This document shows, in pieces, positions 6,288 to 21,510 of a DNA stretch of 22,859 nucleotides; the stretch's first letter is position 1, and each line of letters starts with the position of its first letter. The notes beneath the pieces are model-generated. The model was not told the DNA's origin, did not search any database, and saw only the letters and a program-made list of their open reading frames with translations. Origin of the DNA: a virus; the IMG/VR virus record IMGVR_UViG_3300031975_000444, positions 1 to 22,859 of that record; one strand, written 5' to 3'. A program made the position numbers and the translations under genes.

Positions 6288-8111
6288 TTATGCGAAGTCC
6301 TTGGTGTAGGCCAATGCACCGGCCTGGCGCACGTCCACGTCGTAAAACTTGTTCACGTGCAAAGCAATCTGAGCTGTGCCTGCGTTGCTGTATGGATCAA
6401 CCAAGAGGTCAATGCCACCAAAGAACGCCAACACCATGCCCAAGCTAAAGTCACCAAACAACAACGCACCCAAACCAGCGCCGCCAGCGTCGGCGTCGAC
6501 CAAGTTTGGTGTGAAGTATGTGCTGTAGCCGTCGATGCTGTTGTTGTTAACCAAAGCGCTGACAGAAGCGACAGCAGCCTCGCCCTTCACAATCTCCATT
6601 GCAGAAGGTGAGCCAACAAATGCGCAGCGTGACAAATCGCCACCAGCGGCCAACACAGCCTTCTGCATAGCAAACACGTCTGAAGATGCCAGCGCAACAT
6701 CAGCCTTGTCCACGATAGTACCAGCAGAAGCGGCAGCCTTAGCAAACACAGCCTTGTCAATGGTTTCATTGATACCAGCAGCCAACTCGCGTGAGATCAT
6801 AGCGTCCACCTGAGCACCGCCCTGCAGAATCAACTGCTTGCTGTACTTGGTGTTGGCAGCCACGCGGATTGGCGAGAGTGTCACCTCGTCCAACTCCAAG
6901 CCTGATGCAGCATCAGCAGAAACTTCTGTTTCCTCGGTACCTGCAGCTTTGGCAGAAACGCGTGGGAACTTGAGGTTGCCAGTAGCGTTGTTGATTGTAG
7001 TAACACCGACGCGCTCAGCCATAGTGGGTGTGCGCAAGGCGTCAATCACACCAGGGACAGAAGTAGCAACAAAGCCAGAGCCGTCACCGCTGTCAGCTTG
7101 GAAGTCGTCGGCAGCACCAGCACGAAACAATGCTGACGCTGGAATACCAACCTGGCCGCTCATCTGCAGGCCGCGCATCTGGTACTCTTTAGCCGCCTCC
7201 TGCGCCCACTCAGCTTCTGCGCCTTCGAGTGCCTTGCCAAAGCTGGCAGCTTGCACAGCACGCGAGAGGCTGAAAGAACGGTTGATTTTGTTGATTTCCT
7301 TGGCTTCAGACACTGACGCGCCGCCCATCTGGGCCTGACGTGTGATCATGTCCTCAGCTGCCTGGCGGCGCTCAATCTTGCCGTCGAGGCGCTCGACCTC
7401 GCGCTTGCAGAGGTTAGCCTCTTCTTGTTCGTTGTTGGTCCAGTCGCGATTTTCAGTTTCTGCGACGTTCACCAACTCTTCGAAGCGGTCCGCGTGCTTA
7501 GCGCGCACTGCCTTCATCTCGTTGAGATTCATGGGTTCTTGAATTTGTGGTTCGTTTGTAGTTGTATCTGTATCAGCCACCGCTTCCGCGATAGCGTCGT
7601 CAAGCTCAAGCTGTTGATCACGCGCCTGCACCGTGGCGGCTGCGTATGCTGGATAGGTCACAGGTGACACGTCCAACAACTGCCGCACCTTATCTACGCT
7701 GCGCACGGTGCGCTCTTCGTTCCAGCTCTGGTCTTTGATTGTGAATGCAAAGCTGCTCTGGCTAATGTCACCGCGTTTCACGCTCTCGTAGAAGTCTTTG
7801 GCATACTGTTGGTTGCCCAGCTTGACGCGGTACTTCAGCCCGCGCTCGTCTGTGCTCAATTCCAGTGTGCCGTTCTCGGTACGTCCAAGAATCAAATTCG
7901 GGTCGTGGTTGATCAGCGCGCGCACGTCGTTGGTCATCACGTCGTCAAATGCGCCTGGCTTAATTACTTCACGAAAGTGCCCGAGGTCTGTCTCGCTGTT
8001 AAACACAGCGGCGTAGCCCTCCAGCACCATGTCGTCGCTGTCGGCCTCGCGCACCTCAATGGTGCCCATTGTCCGCTTTTCAGCGTCTTTATACTGTTGG
8101 TTGTCCTCCAT
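6288..8111 (-). CDS. Prohead protease-major capsid protein fusion (607 aa)
   Basis: One reading frame joins a HK97-type maturation protease to a HK97-fold capsid protein. Residues about 15-165 carry the protease signature: VLEGYAAVFNSE, ALINHDPNLILGR (catalytic His near residue 69) and RGDISQSSFAF (catalytic Ser near 120), then DVSPVTYPAY. Residues from about 194 (MNLNEMKAVRAKH) are a helical delta/scaffold-like region, then the capsid body (SGFVATSVPGVIDALRTPTMAERVG). The upstream TTG at 8141 opens the frame, but ATG 8111 is more likely; it overlaps the portal end by 23 nt. The in-frame ATG at 7532 could give capsid protein alone. Cleavage by the protease itself would otherwise release capsid subunits. 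A strong terminator follows. Confidence 0.92.
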   Translation of the reverse strand: MEDNQQYKDAEKRTMGTIEVREADSDDMVLEGYAAVFNSETDLGHFREVIKPGAFDDVMTNDVRALINHDPNLILGRTENGTLELSTDERGLKYRVKLGNQQYAKDFYESVKRGDISQSSFAFTIKDQSWNEERTVRSVDKVRQLLDVSPVTYPAYAAATVQARDQQLELDDAIAEAVADTDTTTNEPQIQEPMNLNEMKAVRAKHADRFEELVNVAETENRDWTNNEQEEANLCKREVERLDGKIERRQAAEDMITRQAQMGGASVSEAKEINKINRSFSLSRAVQAASFGKALEGAEAEWAQEAAKEYQMRGLQMSGQVGIPASALFRAGAADDFQADSGDGSGFVATSVPGVIDALRTPTMAERVGVTTINNATGNLKFPRVSAKAAGTEETEVSADAASGLELDEVTLSPIRVAANTKYSKQLILQGGAQVDAMISRELAAGINETIDKAVFAKAAASAGTIVDKADVALASSDVFAMQKAVLAAGGDLSRCAFVGSPSAMEIVKGEAAVASVSALVNNNSIDGYSTYFTPNLVDADAGGAGLGALLFGDFSLGMVLAFFGGIDLLVDPYSNAGTAQIALHVNKFYDVDVRQAGALAYTKDFA

Positions 8112-9294
8112 CGTTTGAAACTTTGTCGCTGTACTCGCCAAGGCGGTCCAACGCGATTTGATTGATCTGCACTGTGTGCACGTCGCCGCCCTCCACAGGG
8201 TTCATCTGCTCCTTGGCCCGCACCTCGTTGATGCTCATCACACCGCTCTGCAGCATCTGCTGGTAGAAGTTGGTGCGAGCTGCAAGGTCGCCACGGTACA
8301 GGTCGTTCATGTTAAACTTGCTGTACACCTCTGGCCGCTCAAAGCTCTGAATCAGCTTGCGGTCAATCTCCTGCTCAATGCGCTTGGCCCACGGTGCAAT
8401 CGTGTGACGTGCAAACTGCAGGTTTTGCTGCTCAACGTTGTTGAAGGTCGTCTGCGACGGCAGCTGCACCAGCGACGTGGGCACGCTGTAGATGCGGCAA
8501 ATCTCTTCTGCTTGGAACTTGCGCGTCTCAATAAACTGCGCCTCGTCTGGCGTGATCGTGATGCGCTGGTACTTGAAGCCAAACGGCAGCAGCTTGGTGC
8601 CCGCGTTCATTGCGCTCTGGTTCCAGCTGTTCTGAATCACGTCCATCTGCTCCTTGCGCAGTGGCTGGTCTGATGCCAGCACGCCAGTCATCTGGCCCTT
8701 CTGCCCGAAGTACTCGCTGCCAAAGTCCTGCGCCGCCTTGGCCAGACCAATGTTTTCGCGATGCAGGCGAATTGGCGACATCTTGTTCATGCAAGAAATC
8801 TCCAGCATGTTGTCCTGCGTCACGGCGCCGTAGTCGCGAATCACAAACACCCGCTCGCCTTCCACCTCCTTCACGTCCACGTCGTAGTAGCTCACAGGTA
8901 CGAGGCGCTCTGCATAACCTCGTGTGTTGCGCTCAATGATGGCGTAACCGCAGCCGTACATGAGCGCGCTGCTCATCAGCGTCTCCCAAAAGTCATAGGC
9001 GTTTTGGTGCTCGTTGGGCGCTGCAGTAATCAGGTCATACGCTGGGTGCTGGTTGGCCACCTCCATGTTGCGCCCGTCCTGCACGTAAATCTCCAGGCCC
9101 AAGCTGCTGATTGTGCTCGCAATCTTGTTGATGCAAGCATACACTGTAGAAATGGCCAGTGCGCTCTGCTCCGTTACATTGACGCCGCTGCGCACGATTG
9201 GGTTGATGCCCATCTCGGCCTCGATTGTCTGGCTGTTGTACTTGCCCACGCGGTAGCGGAACAAGGCGCTAAGACGGTCTGTGAGTGTGGCCAT
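8089..9294 (-). CDS. Portal protein, HK97 family (401 aa)
   Basis: The dodecameric portal is the DNA gate at one capsid vertex. Sequence marks: VTEQSALAISTVYACINKIA, typical of the N-terminal core; NAYDFWETLMSSALMYGCGYA; GQMTGVLASDQPL; then EAQFIETRKFQAEEICRIYSVP, FNNVEQQNLQFARHTIAPW and MSINEVRAKEQMNPVEGGD. These follow the Phage_portal (PF04860) order and the length is normal. It begins with ATG 36 nt after the large terminase stop, with no Shine-Dalgarno, and overlaps the start of the protease-capsid gene. Confidence 0.94.
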   Translation of the reverse strand: MATLTDRLSALFRYRVGKYNSQTIEAEMGINPIVRSGVNVTEQSALAISTVYACINKIASTISSLGLEIYVQDGRNMEVANQHPAYDLITAAPNEHQNAYDFWETLMSSALMYGCGYAIIERNTRGYAERLVPVSYYDVDVKEVEGERVFVIRDYGAVTQDNMLEISCMNKMSPIRLHRENIGLAKAAQDFGSEYFGQKGQMTGVLASDQPLRKEQMDVIQNSWNQSAMNAGTKLLPFGFKYQRITITPDEAQFIETRKFQAEEICRIYSVPTSLVQLPSQTTFNNVEQQNLQFARHTIAPWAKRIEQEIDRKLIQSFERPEVYSKFNMNDLYRGDLAARTNFYQQMLQSGVMSINEVRAKEQMNPVEGGDVHTVQINQIALDRLGEYSDKVSNDGGQPTV

Positions 9295-12014: not shown

Positions 12015-12296
12015 TCATGTAGTGCCAATCACCTTTAGTTCTCCTTTCCTGCGCGGTCTGGCTGCTTGCACATACAAGTCCTTGGCAATGACGTGCAGCC
12101 ATTCATTCGCCTTGCTGCCGCTGTGTATCAATCTGCTCTCTGCGTGCAGCTTTCCGTCCGCGTCTGTCCACGTGTATTCTTCTTGTGAGGTTCTCCGGTA
12201 TGCTTCGATTGAAGCTGCGATCTGCCGCAATTCTCTCTGCGAGTATGGCTGCAACTTTGGCTTCATAGTATTCAATCCATTCTTTGAGTTTGTCAT
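12015..12296 (-). CDS. Hypothetical protein (93 aa), long overlap with ninG
   Basis: The frame begins MTNSKNGLNTMKPKLQPYSQ and continues with RELRQIAASIEAYRRTSQEEY, WTDADGKLHAESRLIHSGSK and NEWLHVIAKDLYVQAARPRR. No family is recognised. It overlaps the NinG C-terminus by 194 nt, unusual even here, but the last 88 nt would otherwise be empty and the next gene starts 3 nt after its stop. A start at the internal ATG (12266) would reduce the overlap. Either the NinG tail or the first part of this frame may be non-functional. Composition is soluble, basic and mostly helical. Confidence 0.5.
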   Translation of the reverse strand: MTNSKNGLNTMKPKLQPYSQRELRQIAASIEAYRRTSQEEYTWTDADGKLHAESRLIHSGSKANEWLHVIAKDLYVQAARPRRKGELKVIGTT

Positions 12297-12693
12297 TGGT
12301 TGGTCGTTTTCCTGTTGTCGCTATTTCAAATATCTCGTCGCACACGCCTTTGCCGTACATGCGCTCCAGTGCTTTGCTGTACAACCACTGCTGGCCGCCG
12401 CTCTGCATATTGCATCCAGCGCATTGGGCAAATACGTTGATGCCCATCCATCGCGAGGCGATGTACTTGCGGCTGATAAAGTGCCCAGCTTGCACCTTCG
12501 TCCAGTGCTCGCGCTTGCCGCATGTGATGCACTCGCAGATGCCTTTGCTGTCGCTGTCGCGCAGTCGCACAAACCAGCTGAAGCATCTATCGAGCCTGCT
12601 CGTCAGTATTGCCCTCTCGCTGCGCTTTCGCCTCGCCTTTCGTTTTGCCTTGCTGCCAGTGTTGCTCCGTGGTTGCTGCATCCTCTTTGTCAT
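12103..12693 (-). CDS. ninG: NinG-like recombination protein (196 aa)
   Basis: It resembles lambda NinG (Rap), a structure-specific nuclease involved in recombination. Seen: FSWFVRLRDSDSKG, then CECITCGK (C55-x2-C58), QAGHFISRKYIASRW (H71), NVFAQCAGCNM (C91-x2-C94) and LERMYGKGVCDEI, the family signature in order. The first 35 residues are a Lys/Arg-rich extension (SKAKRKARRKRSER) that overlaps the preceding gene by 107 nt. The C-terminal 60 residues overlap the 93-aa frame. In lambda, NinG lies downstream of replication genes O and P; the same order appears here. Confidence 0.88.
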   Translation of the reverse strand: MTKRMQQPRSNTGSKAKRKARRKRSERAILTSRLDRCFSWFVRLRDSDSKGICECITCGKREHWTKVQAGHFISRKYIASRWMGINVFAQCAGCNMQSGGQQWLYSKALERMYGKGVCDEIFEIATTGKRPTNDKLKEWIEYYEAKVAAILAERIAADRSFNRSIPENLTRRIHVDRRGRKAARREQIDTQRQQGE

Positions 12694-13171
12694 TGGGATA
12701 AGGTATGAACGTCCTGTCTAACACCTTGCGCGGTGTCTTCAGCAGTCCTTCTGCATCCAGGTCGCGCTTCAATCTCTGCCAGTCGATGGCTGCTGTCTCC
12801 ACTTGCTGCTTCTTGTTTTCAACGTGCTCCTGTTCACGCATTGTAACTGTATTCTGCATCTCGTAATTGCGGATGCAGTCAATCAGCACGTTTGTGGTGA
12901 AGTTGCCGTACAAGTCAAAGCGGCCCTGTCTGATTTGCTTAAATGCAATCAGCACCTCCTCCAGCTTCATGCTTGGGAACAGCTCGCAGATGTCCTCCAC
13001 TGCATCCTGAAGGTCTGTCTGCGTCTGGAAGGTGCGCGTGGCGTTCACGTGGCGCACCAGGCGCTCCAGCTCTGCAAGCATTGTCAGGCGCACCTTGGCT
13101 GGCTCCGCCTTCAGCGCTTTGCTCAGTGAGAAACCGCGCTTGTACGCTTGCGAAACTGTCATGCCATGCAT
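12587..13171 (-). CDS. Putative replication accessory protein / helicase-loader analogue (194 aa)
   Basis: No family is recognised with certainty. The core is AKVRLTMLAELERLVRHVNA, then LQDAVEDICELFPSMKLEEV, AFKQIRQGRFDLYGNFTTNVLIDCIRNYE, a compact helical domain, followed by a coiled, charged region (TMREQEHVENKKQQVE) and a Gln/Lys-rich tail. The frame extends to ATG 13324, but that would overlap the initiator by 146 nt; ATG 13171 lies 7 nt after the initiator stop and is preferred. Its place between the initiator and NinG matches lambda P, and no helicase is encoded, so a role in recruiting the host helicase is a reasonable but unproven guess. Confidence 0.6.
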   Translation of the reverse strand: MHGMTVSQAYKRGFSLSKALKAEPAKVRLTMLAELERLVRHVNATRTFQTQTDLQDAVEDICELFPSMKLEEVLIAFKQIRQGRFDLYGNFTTNVLIDCIRNYEMQNTVTMREQEHVENKKQQVETAAIDWQRLKRDLDAEGLLKTPRKVLDRTFIPYPNDKEDAATTEQHWQQGKTKGEAKAQREGNTDEQAR

Positions 13172-13178
13172 TGCTTGT

Positions 13179-13835
13179 CTACTGTTTTCCAGTAGCCCAT
13201 GCAAGTGCTTGTTCTCTATCAAGCTCAGGCCGTTTTCCGCTTTTTGCTCCTTTAAGCTCAAAGAGTCCTTGCCAGCCTTGCGCAATGCTTTGCTGGATGA
13301 TTGCGATTGCGGTTCTGTAGTCATCGTTGCTCATTTTTTTGAGGTTGTGCAGTGCTGCCTGCTCGCCATTGTCGGTGTAATTCTTGTAGCGCCTGTCACG
13401 ACGCTCCTGCAGCCATGTCTTCCACATCTCCAGAAACTCAGTTTCGGTGAATGGATACACAACCTCTTTTTTAGATGTATTCTTAGTTGTTCTTTCTACT
13501 GTATTAGTATGTGGGAATTTTGACGATGCAGAGTCGACATTTTGACGATGCAGAGTCGACATTTTGACGAGTCTGCCTAGGCTCAAATGTCGCACACGGC
13601 CATTGAAGTAACACTCCAGCAGCTCCAGCTGCACCAATTTTTTGATGATGCGCTGGACTGTCTTTGGCGTGATGCCATACTGCTGCCGGATTGTGTCATT
13701 GCTTTTGTGGAAGGTCTTGCCATTCTTGCTGAATGACTCGACTTCCGCCAAAAACGCCTTCTCTGTGATTGTGAGCCGATCATCTAACCACACTTCTGCA
13801 GGTATCCAGATGCCGAGAAACTCACGTTCGCTCAT
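13179..13835 (-). CDS. Winged-helix replication initiator, O-like (218 aa)
   Basis: Probable origin-binding protein. Residues 1-80 form a winged helix-turn-helix: GIWIPAEVWLDDRLTITEKA, then SNDTIRQQYGITPKTVQRII and VQLELLECYF. Residues about 90-125 are a polar linker (DSASSKFPHTNTVERTTKNT). Residues about 128-195 are a helical C-terminal domain (TEFLEMWKTWLQERRDRRYK, YRTAIAIIQQSIAQGWQGLF), typical of phage initiators with DnaD-like or related ends. The open frame extends to 13931, but ATG 13835 overlaps the upstream gene by only 14 nt. The linker DNA carries tandem 22-bp repeats, as the lambda O gene carries its origin. Confidence 0.8.
   Translation of the reverse strand: MSEREFLGIWIPAEVWLDDRLTITEKAFLAEVESFSKNGKTFHKSNDTIRQQYGITPKTVQRIIKKLVQLELLECYFNGRVRHLSLGRLVKMSTLHRQNVDSASSKFPHTNTVERTTKNTSKKEVVYPFTETEFLEMWKTWLQERRDRRYKNYTDNGEQAALHNLKKMSNDDYRTAIAIIQQSIAQGWQGLFELKGAKSGKRPELDREQALAWATGKQ
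13461..13570. repeat. Iteron array plus AT-rich tract, candidate replication origin
   Basis: Two perfect tandem 22-bp units lie at 13517-13538 and 13539-13560, each beginning ATTTTGACGATG and ending GAGTCGAC. A third partial unit (ATTTTGACGA) follows at 13561-13570. Next to it, 13461-13516 is about 70% A+T with T-rich runs, unlike the surroundings. The whole block falls in the linker-coding part of the initiator gene. Lambda and its relatives place iterons and an AT-rich unwinding element inside O in the same way. The 22-bp period is two helical turns. Function is inferred. Confidence 0.65.
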
Positions 13836-14031
13836 AATGATTTGGCGTGTTTCTGTCCAAAGCCTGCATGAGCAGTTTGTGCAGCCTTGGATGGAACTGA
13901 TGCAAATTCTTGATGAACTGCGCCTCCTCAATCAATTCTGCGTCTGGATGATAAAACATTGACGTTGGGTTGCGCCGCATTTGTTTAAAACGTTCAAACC
14001 GTTCGTGATGGGTTAGTTGGCTAATTTTCAT
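13822..14031 (-). CDS. Hypothetical protein (69 aa)
   Basis: A small basic, His/Phe-rich protein: MKISQLTHHERFERFKQMRR, then NPTSMFYHPDAELIEEAQFI, ending LHKLLMQALDRNTPNHYERT. It is predicted to be mostly helical, with no membrane segment and no recognised domain. Its ATG overlaps the stop of the ssDNA-binding protein gene (ATGA), and its end overlaps the initiator start by 14 nt. The tight coupling supports a real gene in the replication block. Confidence 0.7.
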   Translation of the reverse strand: MKISQLTHHERFERFKQMRRNPTSMFYHPDAELIEEAQFIKNLHQFHPRLHKLLMQALDRNTPNHYERT

Positions 14032-14522
14032 GCGAATGGGTCTTCTCCGTTCAACAATGCGTCGAGGTTGACGCTCAACGTGGCCATTGCTTTCTCGACG
14101 TCTGGCAAGATTGGTCCAGGCACTGGGATGACTGTGTACTTCGTCTCCAACCCTTCGCCCTTGCGCGTGATGCGGATGTCAAAGGTGTTGGGATGTCCAA
14201 AGTCTGGCTCTTTGGTAATCTCGTGCAATGCGTCAAACACGCTTTTCTGCGTGATCTCCCACACCTGCACGCACTGATCGTCGTAGTTCCACACAGCCAC
14301 GGCCAAAAACTTGCGCGGCTTGTCGCCCTCGCGATAGTTGGCTTCTGGCTTGCTGTCCTTCCAGTGCCAGCGCACAGGCTTGTTGTCCTCTGTCCAAAGC
14401 ACGTAGCCTTCCAAGCCTTTCTCGCTCAGAATGCGCACTTTGCTAGTCTTGTCTTTTGCAGGGCGGAAGTAGCTGCCTGCGTTGTTGTTCGCTGTTGCGA
14501 AGTCTTCAGAAATAAAACTCAT
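14028..14522 (-). CDS. Putative single-stranded DNA-binding protein (164 aa)
   Basis: The pattern resembles phage gp32-like OB-fold ssDNA-binding proteins: an N-terminus SFISEDFATANNNAGSYF, then KVRILSEKGLEGYVLWTED, a basic aromatic stretch (KPVRWHWKDSKPEANYREGD), RKFLAVAVWNYDDQCVQVWE with ITQKSVFDALHEITKEPDF, and FDIRITRKGEGLETKYTVIP. The C-terminus (LLNGEDPFA) is short and acidic, as in many SSBs where it contacts partner proteins. No zinc cysteines are present, unlike T4 gp32. It sits upstream of the initiator. The assignment is from overall pattern, not a decisive motif. Confidence 0.65.
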   Translation of the reverse strand: MSFISEDFATANNNAGSYFRPAKDKTSKVRILSEKGLEGYVLWTEDNKPVRWHWKDSKPEANYREGDKPRKFLAVAVWNYDDQCVQVWEITQKSVFDALHEITKEPDFGHPNTFDIRITRKGEGLETKYTVIPVPGPILPDVEKAMATLSVNLDALLNGEDPFA

Positions 14523-15073: not shown

Positions 15074-15103
15074 GGCATCCAAACGGCATCCAAACGGCAC
15101 CCA
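15074..15103. repeat. Tandem 11-bp repeats upstream of early operon (candidate operator)
   Basis: Two perfect head-to-tail copies of GGCATCCAAAC (15074-15084 and 15085-15095) are followed by a degenerate third (GGCACCCA, 15096-15103). The period is about one helical turn. The array ends about 19 nt upstream of the first early ATG. Such arrays are typical binding sites for ribbon-helix-helix regulators, one of which is encoded three genes downstream. Confidence 0.6.
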
Positions 15104-19400: not shown

Positions 19401-19645
19401 AGCAGTGTGTTTAGCTTGCTGTCGATGGCTGCAGGCCACAGTGTCGTCACCTCGCAGCGGGAGTGCACAATGCCTGGCACCAGCGCGCTGTCCTCCACGC
19501 TTTCGTAGCGCAGCGCAAAGCCGTTGGCCGCTAGACTGAACTCTGTCGTCTGATCGCTGCCAGCTGCAGTGCGAATGATGCGCACCTCGTAGCTGTCCTC
19601 ATTCAAGGACTCGCCTACTCCTTTGGCAAATAGGTAGCTGCTCAT
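16427..19645 (-). CDS. Tail tip/adhesin protein with C-terminal lectin-like domain (1072 aa)
   Basis: The largest gene of the phage follows the tape measure and probably forms the distal tail and receptor-binding tip. The N-terminal part (NGFALRYESVEDSALVPGIV, VTTLWPAAIDSKLNTLLTGL, WVGSILVEEFSVDEDSTNKE, RIVATDALSLLKHVDYND) resembles baseplate/tail-tip proteins of Bacteroidota-type siphophages. From about residue 809 comes a lectin-like module (AAYGLRRLRAAYTGNAIEV, DIGFDSNGELDQSAL, VSKWYDQTTNGRTL) ending in a beta-rich LamG-like region. The same signature occurs in the tail terminator at 3621-4799. The ATG overlaps the tape-measure stop. Carbohydrate binding at the host surface is inferred; no cleavage motif is evident. 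Confidence 0.8.
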   Translation of the reverse strand: MSSYLFAKGVGESLNEDSYEVRIIRTAAGSDQTTEFSLAANGFALRYESVEDSALVPGIVHSRCEVTTLWPAAIDSKLNTLLTGLATSEDGDYLLEVLRDSTRIWVGSILVEEFSVDEDSTNKEVRIVATDALSLLKHVDYNDDGTAYSGYQTVYDILKNIQEKWSLYTYLDEQNSGTEYRLAWAEDVYSEDDYIMAAETHPAGTDLKSIKRSRIHTNPWSNVNSSGATEYISCYDLLQSLCLTYQWRLYSYGDAWHLLPVALAGERTPGTVLQWNGTEVDRDVIAQYDFQKDASNDVRQKDAGWRISYTPPHNEVRVTRDTNDGATVISSFNFAAATALADADIVYPGIDTESSEVFYEMRGRLKFTQSAQSVTGSPIAELMLRFTIAWGDSSTEYYVNTVADNSGLLTGWASSNGNYDGIPVIAVNPDYSASAGYFYVKAPNDSGVYDVEQDIERFVDFVFIVPPPQTQKTGLTVTPDFIVWDAGGANNSTYKTAVTATFVDFKVSKFSGDLLELIADYDIVANTSTGRGALQLGTTHVGQLGASMGRIDVQTSAGVYSTSSNWVCQDNDTARAINTLLVEETLARHNKPKGVERGSIVLRGTSAAVPQPFNFYKDLDTATFYAPVNWQLNATACEIDVTLRKTGRDAISMTTQEQGTGKGPDTPIGGSTGQDPVTALPNTRGYNQQAADKFGGDFSSIIGSRTLEAYYTVVNDGTGRRVSHQGESPASGYNIQRRIWLIEKGLQDGADSGWKSSSRQPQPNDTIQDAFTLIDEVMAIDEDHGSYTFLISYEEVGDDLLDNYSGATAAYGLRRLRAAYTGNAIEVTDGSTTQDIGFDSNGELDQSALETYANGAEVKVSKWYDQTTNGRTLSQTSDAARPTITDSSGNMLTLNGKPAMKLNGAQSLPATANFNANVNVTELVAAWVGSVNQLTAGNNMVSHWASSTGSQVFQVQFTASNDNLRWATRYSNGALHTTDNGSAITSGAQYIVVGMAQHNDHEADFDGTNVIGGTPGAHVNDATTSFRVGARSDNSAGAHTGFTQEVVVFSRSVALNDHEAIADTINEYYSSY

Positions 19646-21510
19646 GCGTAACGGTTGCGGGCGCTGCTGTTGCGTGCGTTGCTCAAGTAGATGTCGTCGC
19701 CCTTAATGCGTCCAACAACTTCGACGACGCCGACGCCCATCATGTCTTTCAATTTACTCAATGGCGCCACAACTTCAGGATCAATCGCTGCGTTTCTGTT
19801 GTCGCCGACCATTGCCATAGTTGGGCCGTATGCCAGGCCGCCGTTGGCCAGTGCTGGCACGCCTGCGCGCTGTATTAAACCGCTGCCTGTTGCCAATGCC
19901 ACAGCGCCTGGGATGTTGCCCGATGCAAGTGCAGCAGCTGCCGCCTGACGCAGGTACTGTGTTACGATGTCAACTGTGATGCTGCGCAGTGCGTCTGCAA
20001 ATGATTCTGCGCTGCGTGCTGCCGACTCGAAGGCGCCAGTCAGTGTTAAGCCAAACTGCGTTGTCTTGTCCTGCACCTCCTCGATCATCATGCCCACATT
20101 CCATGTTGACTGTTGCAGCACCTTGTTGGCGTTGGCCTGCTCAATGGTTTTAGTTGTGAGCTTGCCCATCTCCGTGCTGTACACACGGGTGTCATTTGCT
20201 GCGTCCTTGACCTGCACGTTGACCTCATCTTGTGTCTGGTGCATGTCGCGCACACGCAGCACTAGGTCGGCAATGCGCTCGTCTAGCGCTTTAATCTGCT
20301 CGGTGTAACGCTGCGCACTGCCGCGTGCCACTTGCTTGTCAAACTTATCACCCAAGGCGCCCACTGCCTGCGCCGCCATCTCTGCACGCTGTGCTGCTGC
20401 CAGCTGCGCACGCTCCTGCTCTAGCAAACGCACCTGTTCCTTCGCGTGGTTTATCTGCGCTTGCTTGTCAAGTCCCTGCAGTGATTCAATGAACTTGTCA
20501 TTGGCCTCAACAGCATCAACTGTGCGGTTGCGGAACAACACAACAGCTGTGGTCAGTGCAGTAATGGCCGCAACTACGGCAAGCGCTGGGTTCGCCAACA
20601 TCGCTGTGTTTAAAACGAGGAACGCACCGCGCAGTGCAGTGATGCCTGCAATAATTTTAGGCAACAACAGCAAAACAGGCCCAAGCGCTGCAGCCATGAC
20701 ACCAACCTCAAACACAAACTGTTTGGTTGTGCCAGACGCGCCAGACAAGCTTTCCACAATGCTGCGAATGCCTGCAACCAATGGCCTGATGTTGTCCAGC
20801 ACAACCTTGCCCATTTCCTCGCCGAGGTCGCCAATGGCGTTGCCAAGCTGCGTAATGCCGCCATCTGCTTGTGCAGCAGCCTCAGCACTGCCGCCGTACT
20901 GCTTCTCCAGCTCGTCGAGAATGAGCGTCTGCGCCTCTGCAAGCCTGTTCGTCTCTGCCAGTGACTTAATGACCTCTTTCTGCTCCGCGCTAAATTGAAT
21001 GCCTGACCGCGACAACGCAGACAAGTTGGCCACCGGGTCGTTCAACGCCTTGCCCAGCTGTATGCTTGCGCTCTTTAGATCACCGTCAAGACGTGTGGCA
21101 AGGTCAAGCGCAGCCTTTTGCGTGCGGTCAAACTGCTGGCCTGCGATGTTGGTGAACGTCAGCAGCTGGGCCGTAGCGTTTTGCAGGATGTCCTCGTCGC
21201 CAAACAATGTCGTCTTTTGCAGGTCGCTGGCCATCTTCTGCAGCTCGCCTAACGTTTTGCCTGCAGCGTTGCCTGTTGACTTCAGACCTTGCTCGACTTG
21301 CGCAACAGCTTTGGCCTGATCGCGAAACGCCTTAACGCTAACAGCAGCAAGACCGACAATCGGCAGCGTGACTGACTTAGTGATTGTCGAGCCAAGCCGC
21401 GTGAAGTTGCCTGTCATGCTGCGCACGTTGCGCTGCACCTTACCAAGCGACTTGTTCAGGTCGCGTGTGTCAGCTCCTATCCGTACTACGAGGTCGCCTA
21501 GTTTCGCCAT
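19642..21510 (-). CDS. Tape measure protein, allele B (622 aa)
   Basis: Same role and gene position as allele A, with almost the same first 30 and last 75 residues, but a different interior. Residues about 60-240 read KAFRDQAKAVAQVEQGLKST, LGELQKMASDLQKTTLFGDE, LLTFTNIAGQQFDRTQKAAL, ALNDPVANLSALSRSGIQFS, a prophage tail-length tape-measure pattern distinct from allele A. A hydrophobic region occurs at the same place (about 265-326, LGPVLLLLPKIIAGI), then a coiled-coil-like charged part (LLEQERAQLAAAQRAEMAAQ). It is 19 residues shorter than allele A. The ATG overlaps the frameshifted chaperone frame by 41 nt; its stop overlaps the tail-tip ATG. Confidence 0.92.
   Translation of the reverse strand: MAKLGDLVVRIGADTRDLNKSLGKVQRNVRSMTGNFTRLGSTITKSVTLPIVGLAAVSVKAFRDQAKAVAQVEQGLKSTGNAAGKTLGELQKMASDLQKTTLFGDEDILQNATAQLLTFTNIAGQQFDRTQKAALDLATRLDGDLKSASIQLGKALNDPVANLSALSRSGIQFSAEQKEVIKSLAETNRLAEAQTLILDELEKQYGGSAEAAAQADGGITQLGNAIGDLGEEMGKVVLDNIRPLVAGIRSIVESLSGASGTTKQFVFEVGVMAAALGPVLLLLPKIIAGITALRGAFLVLNTAMLANPALAVVAAITALTTAVVLFRNRTVDAVEANDKFIESLQGLDKQAQINHAKEQVRLLEQERAQLAAAQRAEMAAQAVGALGDKFDKQVARGSAQRYTEQIKALDERIADLVLRVRDMHQTQDEVNVQVKDAANDTRVYSTEMGKLTTKTIEQANANKVLQQSTWNVGMMIEEVQDKTTQFGLTLTGAFESAARSAESFADALRSITVDIVTQYLRQAAAAALASGNIPGAVALATGSGLIQRAGVPALANGGLAYGPTMAMVGDNRNAAIDPEVVAPLSKLKDMMGVGVVEVVGRIKGDDIYLSNARNSSARNRYA

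Follow-up and report, generated by a model that had tools for sequence, protein, structure and literature searches.

A putative lambda-type replication origin within the O-like initiator gene of a widespread phage lineage known chiefly from metagenome contigs

The lactococcal phages TP901-1 and Tuc2009 and phage SPP1 (gene 38) have origin repeats inside or next to the gene of the replisome organiser. In phage lambda, with ori in gene O, and in the Stx phages P27 and 933W, initiator-binding dyads with a period of about 20–24 bp lie where the initiator gene encodes the linker, an A+T-rich region follows directly 3' of the array and the helicase-loader gene comes next. Dimers, 19-bp inverted repeats and an AT-rich tract have been described for the lambda and Stx origins (PMC7466680), and origin opening has been compared between lambda and plasmid iterons (PMC5043065). 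The iteron plasmids P1, F, RK2, R6K and pSC101 likewise carry phased initiator sites beside an A+T-rich opening region (PMC5043065). Here we describe an O-like replication initiator gene in the 22,859-nucleotide stretch formed by positions 1 to 22,859 of IMG/VR record IMGVR_UViG_3300031975_000444, hereafter the window. As judged from sequence comparison, this gene very probably contains the replication origin of the phage, as gene O contains lambda ori and in contrast to the iteron plasmids, and we assign the element to the lambda type.

The array consists of three iterons with a 22-bp period (TCGTCAAAATGTCGA, TCGTCAAAATGTCGA and TCGTCAAAATTCCCA in the coding direction), each unit being made up of a 15-bp dyad and a 7-bp spacer and delimited by alignment on the clean dyads of relatives (Table 1). 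The original prediction for this stretch had named two perfect 22-bp tandem repeats and a third, partial one. Two perfect copies of ATTTTGACGATGCAGAGTCGAC are indeed present on the + strand at 13517–13538 and 13539–13560, and the third copy (13561–13582) is 68% identical with a perfect match over its first 10 bp (13561–13570); the match therefore stands, but the label "partial" does not, since it belongs to a full-length unit. No further copy with up to three mismatches was found in the window, where none is expected from 100 shuffles. Iteron 1, together with parts of both flanking spacers, forms a 27-bp palindrome, GCAGACTCGTCAAAATGTCGACTCTGC (13550–13576); nowhere else in the window are 10 or more of 12 pairs complementary. 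The third iteron occupies the position of the last iteron in relatives. Inverted-repeat character is strong in two units and weaker in the third (arm pairs in Table 1), and clear dyads with arm covariation are found in relatives. The predicted tract of about 70% A+T beside the repeats measures 69.6% over 13461–13516, compared with 45.5% for the window, and by nearest-neighbour energy the stability minima of the 22.9 kb for lengths of 40, 60 and 80 bp all lie in it.

The protein encoded around this array matches the PHROG replication-initiator families 270, 678, 428 and 391, among them PHROG_678, "replication initiation O-like" (E=2.5e-13), and PHROG_270 (E=1.3e-12), as well as Pfam HTH_36 (E=1.2e-07). 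PHROG_678 and PHROG_391 are shared with lambda O, which matches the former with 1.7e-35. We set the start at MSEREF, from which all close relatives align; the TTG-initiated open reading frame (ORF) of the mechanical scan is longer. In an AlphaFold2 model of low confidence overall (mean predicted local distance difference test, pLDDT, 59.6) and good confidence in the winged-helix domain, this domain comprises helices 23–36, 46–53 and 57–69 and wing strands 73–78 and 81–86, residues 92–127 are disordered and a helical C-terminal part begins at residue 131. Foldseek related the model to winged-helix proteins, with no E value below 0.001. The repeats span codons ~85–107 and thus fall, as had been proposed, in the linker between the two domains.

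Run through the same scripts, lambda O gave a repeat lag of 23 at 0.44 of the gene and its weakest stretch at nt 438–487, directly 3' of the annotated iterons at 349–433. The relative position of the window array in its gene is likewise 0.44 (measured on the identical gene L004), with a period of 22 and with the weakest 50 bp immediately 3', in agreement with the predicted lambda-ori layout. Relatives of the window have TCCCCAAAATGGGGA, which is similar to the lambda iteron core TCCCTCAAAACGAGGGA. The systems differ in the number of units, which is three in the window, four in lambda and six in the Stx phages, and in the spacers, which are irregular in lambda and the Stx phages, whereas the window combines a 15-bp dyad, with imperfect arms, and a 7-bp CAG spacer. 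Unlike lambda O, the window initiator is without Pfam domain PF04492, and the gene in the place of the helicase-loader gene belongs to a different, uncharacterised family.

Homologues were collected in a first scan (62 loci, eight of them 89–100% identical to the window protein), an alignment-based scan (267 relatives, the analysis being continued with the best 80) and a scan of bacterial genomes (eight loci, including three from Pseudomonas). The Pseudomonas loci L067–L069 share the layout of the window. Tandem repeats were tested against codon shuffles (p<=0.01) in the 73 full genes that remained after removal of those more than 90% identical in DNA. They were significant in 61 of these, with no other periods than 21 (5 genes), 22 (39) and 23 bp (17), and the best repeat signal for periods 17–27 lay in the linker, at 0.38–0.55 of the gene, in 71 of the 73. 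Where the in-gene array was clear, a stronger signal of the same period was almost never seen elsewhere in the locus, and among the 73 no homologue was found that combined a linker lacking repeats with a convincing array elsewhere, the case that the original prediction had named as refuting it. In 34 of 35 homologues, the array is bordered on its 3' (coding) side by the weakest 50 bp of the gene, which are often the weakest of the whole locus as well.

Selection in this part of the gene acts on the DNA rather than on the protein. Across eight close relatives, synonymous variation affects 3 of 43 degenerate codons in codons 81–124; in the remainder of the gene, leaving out the part that overlaps the next gene, it affects 63 of 127 (Fisher p=1.7e-7). 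The minimum of a synonymous scan, at codons 80–119, was reached in none of 20000 permutations, and the frozen segment has the same limits as the array and A+T tract together. As neither 22 nor 23 is divisible by three, successive copies stand in different frames, so that the same spacer is translated as QAD, RAE, GSI, RQS or GRG. Both results support the proposal that one sequence may serve as protein spacer and as binding array.

Dimers of the N-terminal winged-helix domain would bind the dyads, and the phased array, with about two helical turns per unit, would assemble an O-some-like complex whose strain might open the adjacent A+T tract. The C-terminal domain, presumed from the analogy with lambda O to partner the helicase loader, could then pass the opened strand to the helicase via the product of the next gene.

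For the clade of the window we compared 34 initiators with 117 spacers, including L029 and L149 as more distant members because they share the spacer. Clean dyads similar to the lambda iteron, e.g., TCCCCAAAATGGGGA and TCGCCAAAATGGCGA, occur in relatives with 46–66% protein identity. Between genes, the dyad arms are about as variable as third codon positions (27–49% identity per column versus 40%). Within a unit, however, arm complementarity is 70%, compared with 37% for re-dealt arms (maximum 46% in 2000 re-deals), and arm identity is 73% within an array versus 38% between genes. On these figures we take the covarying arms to evolve in concert; the central A-tract of the dyads is conserved. 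GCAG or its complement is present in 110 of the 117 spacers (1.4 expected) and CAG or CTG in all 117, a count that is descriptive, since clade and register were picked by inspection and the motif was defined post hoc. The CAG always stands 2 bp from an arm and is found in each of the three reading frames, so that the residues encoded differ. As it is invertible yet keeps a constant distance to the arm, we read it as an extended half-site of one neighbouring iteron. Quite possibly, the site has two parts. Replicon specificity would lie in the fast-evolving, covarying arms, and the invariant CAG, as a contact point for the initiator or another conserved protein, would set the 22-bp register. In this clade, a CAG 2 bp outside the dyad arm would extend one half-site in either orientation and provide the constant contact, while the arms would carry the specificity that changes fast. 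If true, specificity would be separated from register in a lambda-type origin.

A competing view of the CAG, which concerns only the half-site part of the proposal, is that it marks a site for another protein, such as a host nucleoid protein or primase, or a strand signal. It would account for a motif that stays fixed while the dyad arms drift and that can be inverted, but a constant 2-bp distance to the arm in both orientations fits half-site contact better, and we consider it rather unlikely. For the array as a whole, the repeats might instead be an autoregulatory operator, with the winged-helix protein repressing or roadblocking transcription within its own gene and the origin located elsewhere. 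Tandem dyads can act as operators and the fold resembles MarR/SmtB-type repressors; yet this explanation leaves unaccounted for the A+T tract at a fixed distance and side in 34 of 35 genes, the replication-initiation families and the linkage to lambda P or DnaC-like loaders described below. We regard it as very unlikely as a replacement for the origin, although both roles can coexist. That the linker is a slippage-prone protein spacer whose sequence is irrelevant as DNA would agree with its predicted disorder and variable amino-acid sequence. With periods of 22 and 23, however, the protein sequence is not repeated, hardly any synonymous change is seen and the dyad arms covary; by the periods and the synonymous constraint we count this explanation as refuted, with a negligible probability. 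The same negligible weight is given to an assembly or replication-slippage artefact peculiar to the window contig. Although this is a metagenome assembly with duplicated, divergent ends, the same array occurs at the same place, with independent substitutions, in relatives from many other contigs, and the artefact is likewise counted as refuted.

Several observations nevertheless weigh against an origin of the lambda type with a two-part site. In 12 of the 73 homologues the array is not individually significant, and in L035 and L046 none is visible; a per-gene dyad test reached significance in only 38 of 67 genes, and iteron 3 of the window is half a dyad only (3/6 arm pairs). The CAG spacer, its count already limited by the choice of clade and register, is not general outside the clade, as the spacers of the 23-bp group, of Pseudomonas and most of those of L120, L132 and L154 differ. 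The lambda O domain PF04492 (Phage_rep_O), which lambda O itself matches with 5.7e-36, was found neither in the window protein nor in the relatives tested, and a direct profile comparison of the window protein with lambda O alone gave no match. Given that PHROG families are shared all the same, these comparisons place the window protein as an O-like initiator by remote family and not as a close relative of lambda O. Family searches with the product of the next gene returned no recognisable helicase loader. A GC-skew change was expected at the site, and its lack was to count as grounds for rejection; no significant switch was found (the detrended skew range of the 19.17-kb unit is below the block-shuffle mean, p=0.91), which formally meets those grounds, but the test is uninformative because essentially all genes lie on one strand of this 19-kb genome. 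With these points included, we still regard an origin inside the initiator gene as very probable.

The layout itself is long familiar from lambda; a lead worth following is the CAG, which stays invariant while the dyad arms beside it diverge. The array and tract provide a confident base-level map of a putative origin for phages known only from metagenomes. Hundreds of homologues (267 in one scan), in which initiator and origin would evolve together within one gene, offer a natural data set for the co-evolution of an initiator DNA-binding domain with its sites and for the ways in which an array of binding sites can be encoded as a protein linker, whatever the frame.

Table 1. Positions of the initiator gene, its predicted origin elements and adjacent genes in the window.
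Feature	Position	Strand	Details and basis
O-like replication initiator gene	13179..13835	-	218 amino acids, MSEREFLGIW...; PHROG and Pfam matches
Winged-helix DNA-binding domain, residues 13-87	13575..13799	-	AlphaFold2 and Foldseek
Helical C-terminal region, residues 131-190	13266..13445	-	AlphaFold2, low confidence; presumed helicase-loader partner by analogy with lambda O
Segment constrained as DNA, codons 80-124 (iterons and A+T tract)	13464..13598	-	Synonymous variation
Spacer GGCAGAC (forward CAG), 5' of iteron 1	13571..13577	-	CAG/CTG in 117/117 spacers of 34 initiators
Iteron 1, 15-bp dyad TCGTCAAAATGTCGA	13556..13570	-	5/6 arm pairs complementary; centre of 27-bp palindrome
Spacer CTCTGCA (inverted CAG), between iterons 1 and 2	13549..13555	-	Spacer alignment
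Iteron 2, 15-bp dyad TCGTCAAAATGTCGA, identical to iteron 1	13534..13548	-	5/6 arm pairs
Spacer CTCTGCA (inverted CAG), between iterons 2 and 3	13527..13533	-	Spacer alignment
Iteron 3, TCGTCAAAATTCCCA	13512..13526	-	One intact half, 3/6 arm pairs; adjoins A+T tract
A+T tract, presumed DNA-unwinding element	13461..13511	-	Least stable window DNA
Next gene, lambda P position	12587..13324	-	245 amino acids; overlaps initiator gene end; family related to PHROG_35728 (function unknown)
SSB-like gene	14028-14522		Upstream of initiator gene; PHROG 1192/1607
NinG gene	12103-12693		Downstream of initiator gene

Directly after the last iteron, the run TACTAATACA (13490–13511, coding strand) hardly varies within the clade, and in distant relatives the array is followed by similar runs, TAGTAATA/ATAATAA. 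Such runs may act as a signal for strand opening or may in part reflect a codon effect. The (TAN)n pattern of TACTAATACA recalls DnaA-trios, a likeness on which we base no claim, and its strong conservation may partly reflect the protein motif [ST]NT. A candidate inverted, degenerate iteron upstream, GCGACATTTGAG, was dropped, as relatives such as L093 are without it.

Clade relatives of the gene in the lambda P position match PHROG_35728, and its predicted structure (mean pLDDT 50.7) was not used. In other branches this position is occupied by lambda P (PF06992, E=3.5e-30) in L067, a Pseudomonas locus, by a DnaC-like loader in L021, L029, L036 and L070 and by a DnaB helicase in L073. The presence of these genes beside the same initiator family supports the replication reading, and loaders at the same place in other branches suggest that the window product is a helicase loader or its substitute, which makes it a candidate for a new helicase-loader family.

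The contig ends 1–3690 and 19169–22859 represent the same region (offset 19168 in the left part and 19111 in the right part) and are ~93–98% identical except in the middle of the tape-measure gene, where 474–2399 and 19642–21510 are unrelated by DNA. The contig is probably a circularly permuted or terminally redundant genome of ~19.1 kb, assembled across two strains with different tape measures; contigs of relatives measure 18.7–19.3 kb. A near-identity search of the phages collection gave no match. A single 617-amino-acid ORF at 6288–8141 resembles an HK97-type prohead protease in its N-terminal part and a major capsid protein in the rest, a fusion judged from the translation alone. Finally, a short 11-bp tandem repeat, GGCATCCAAAC, is present in 2.7 copies at 15074–15103 and also at the end of the near-identical contig L004.
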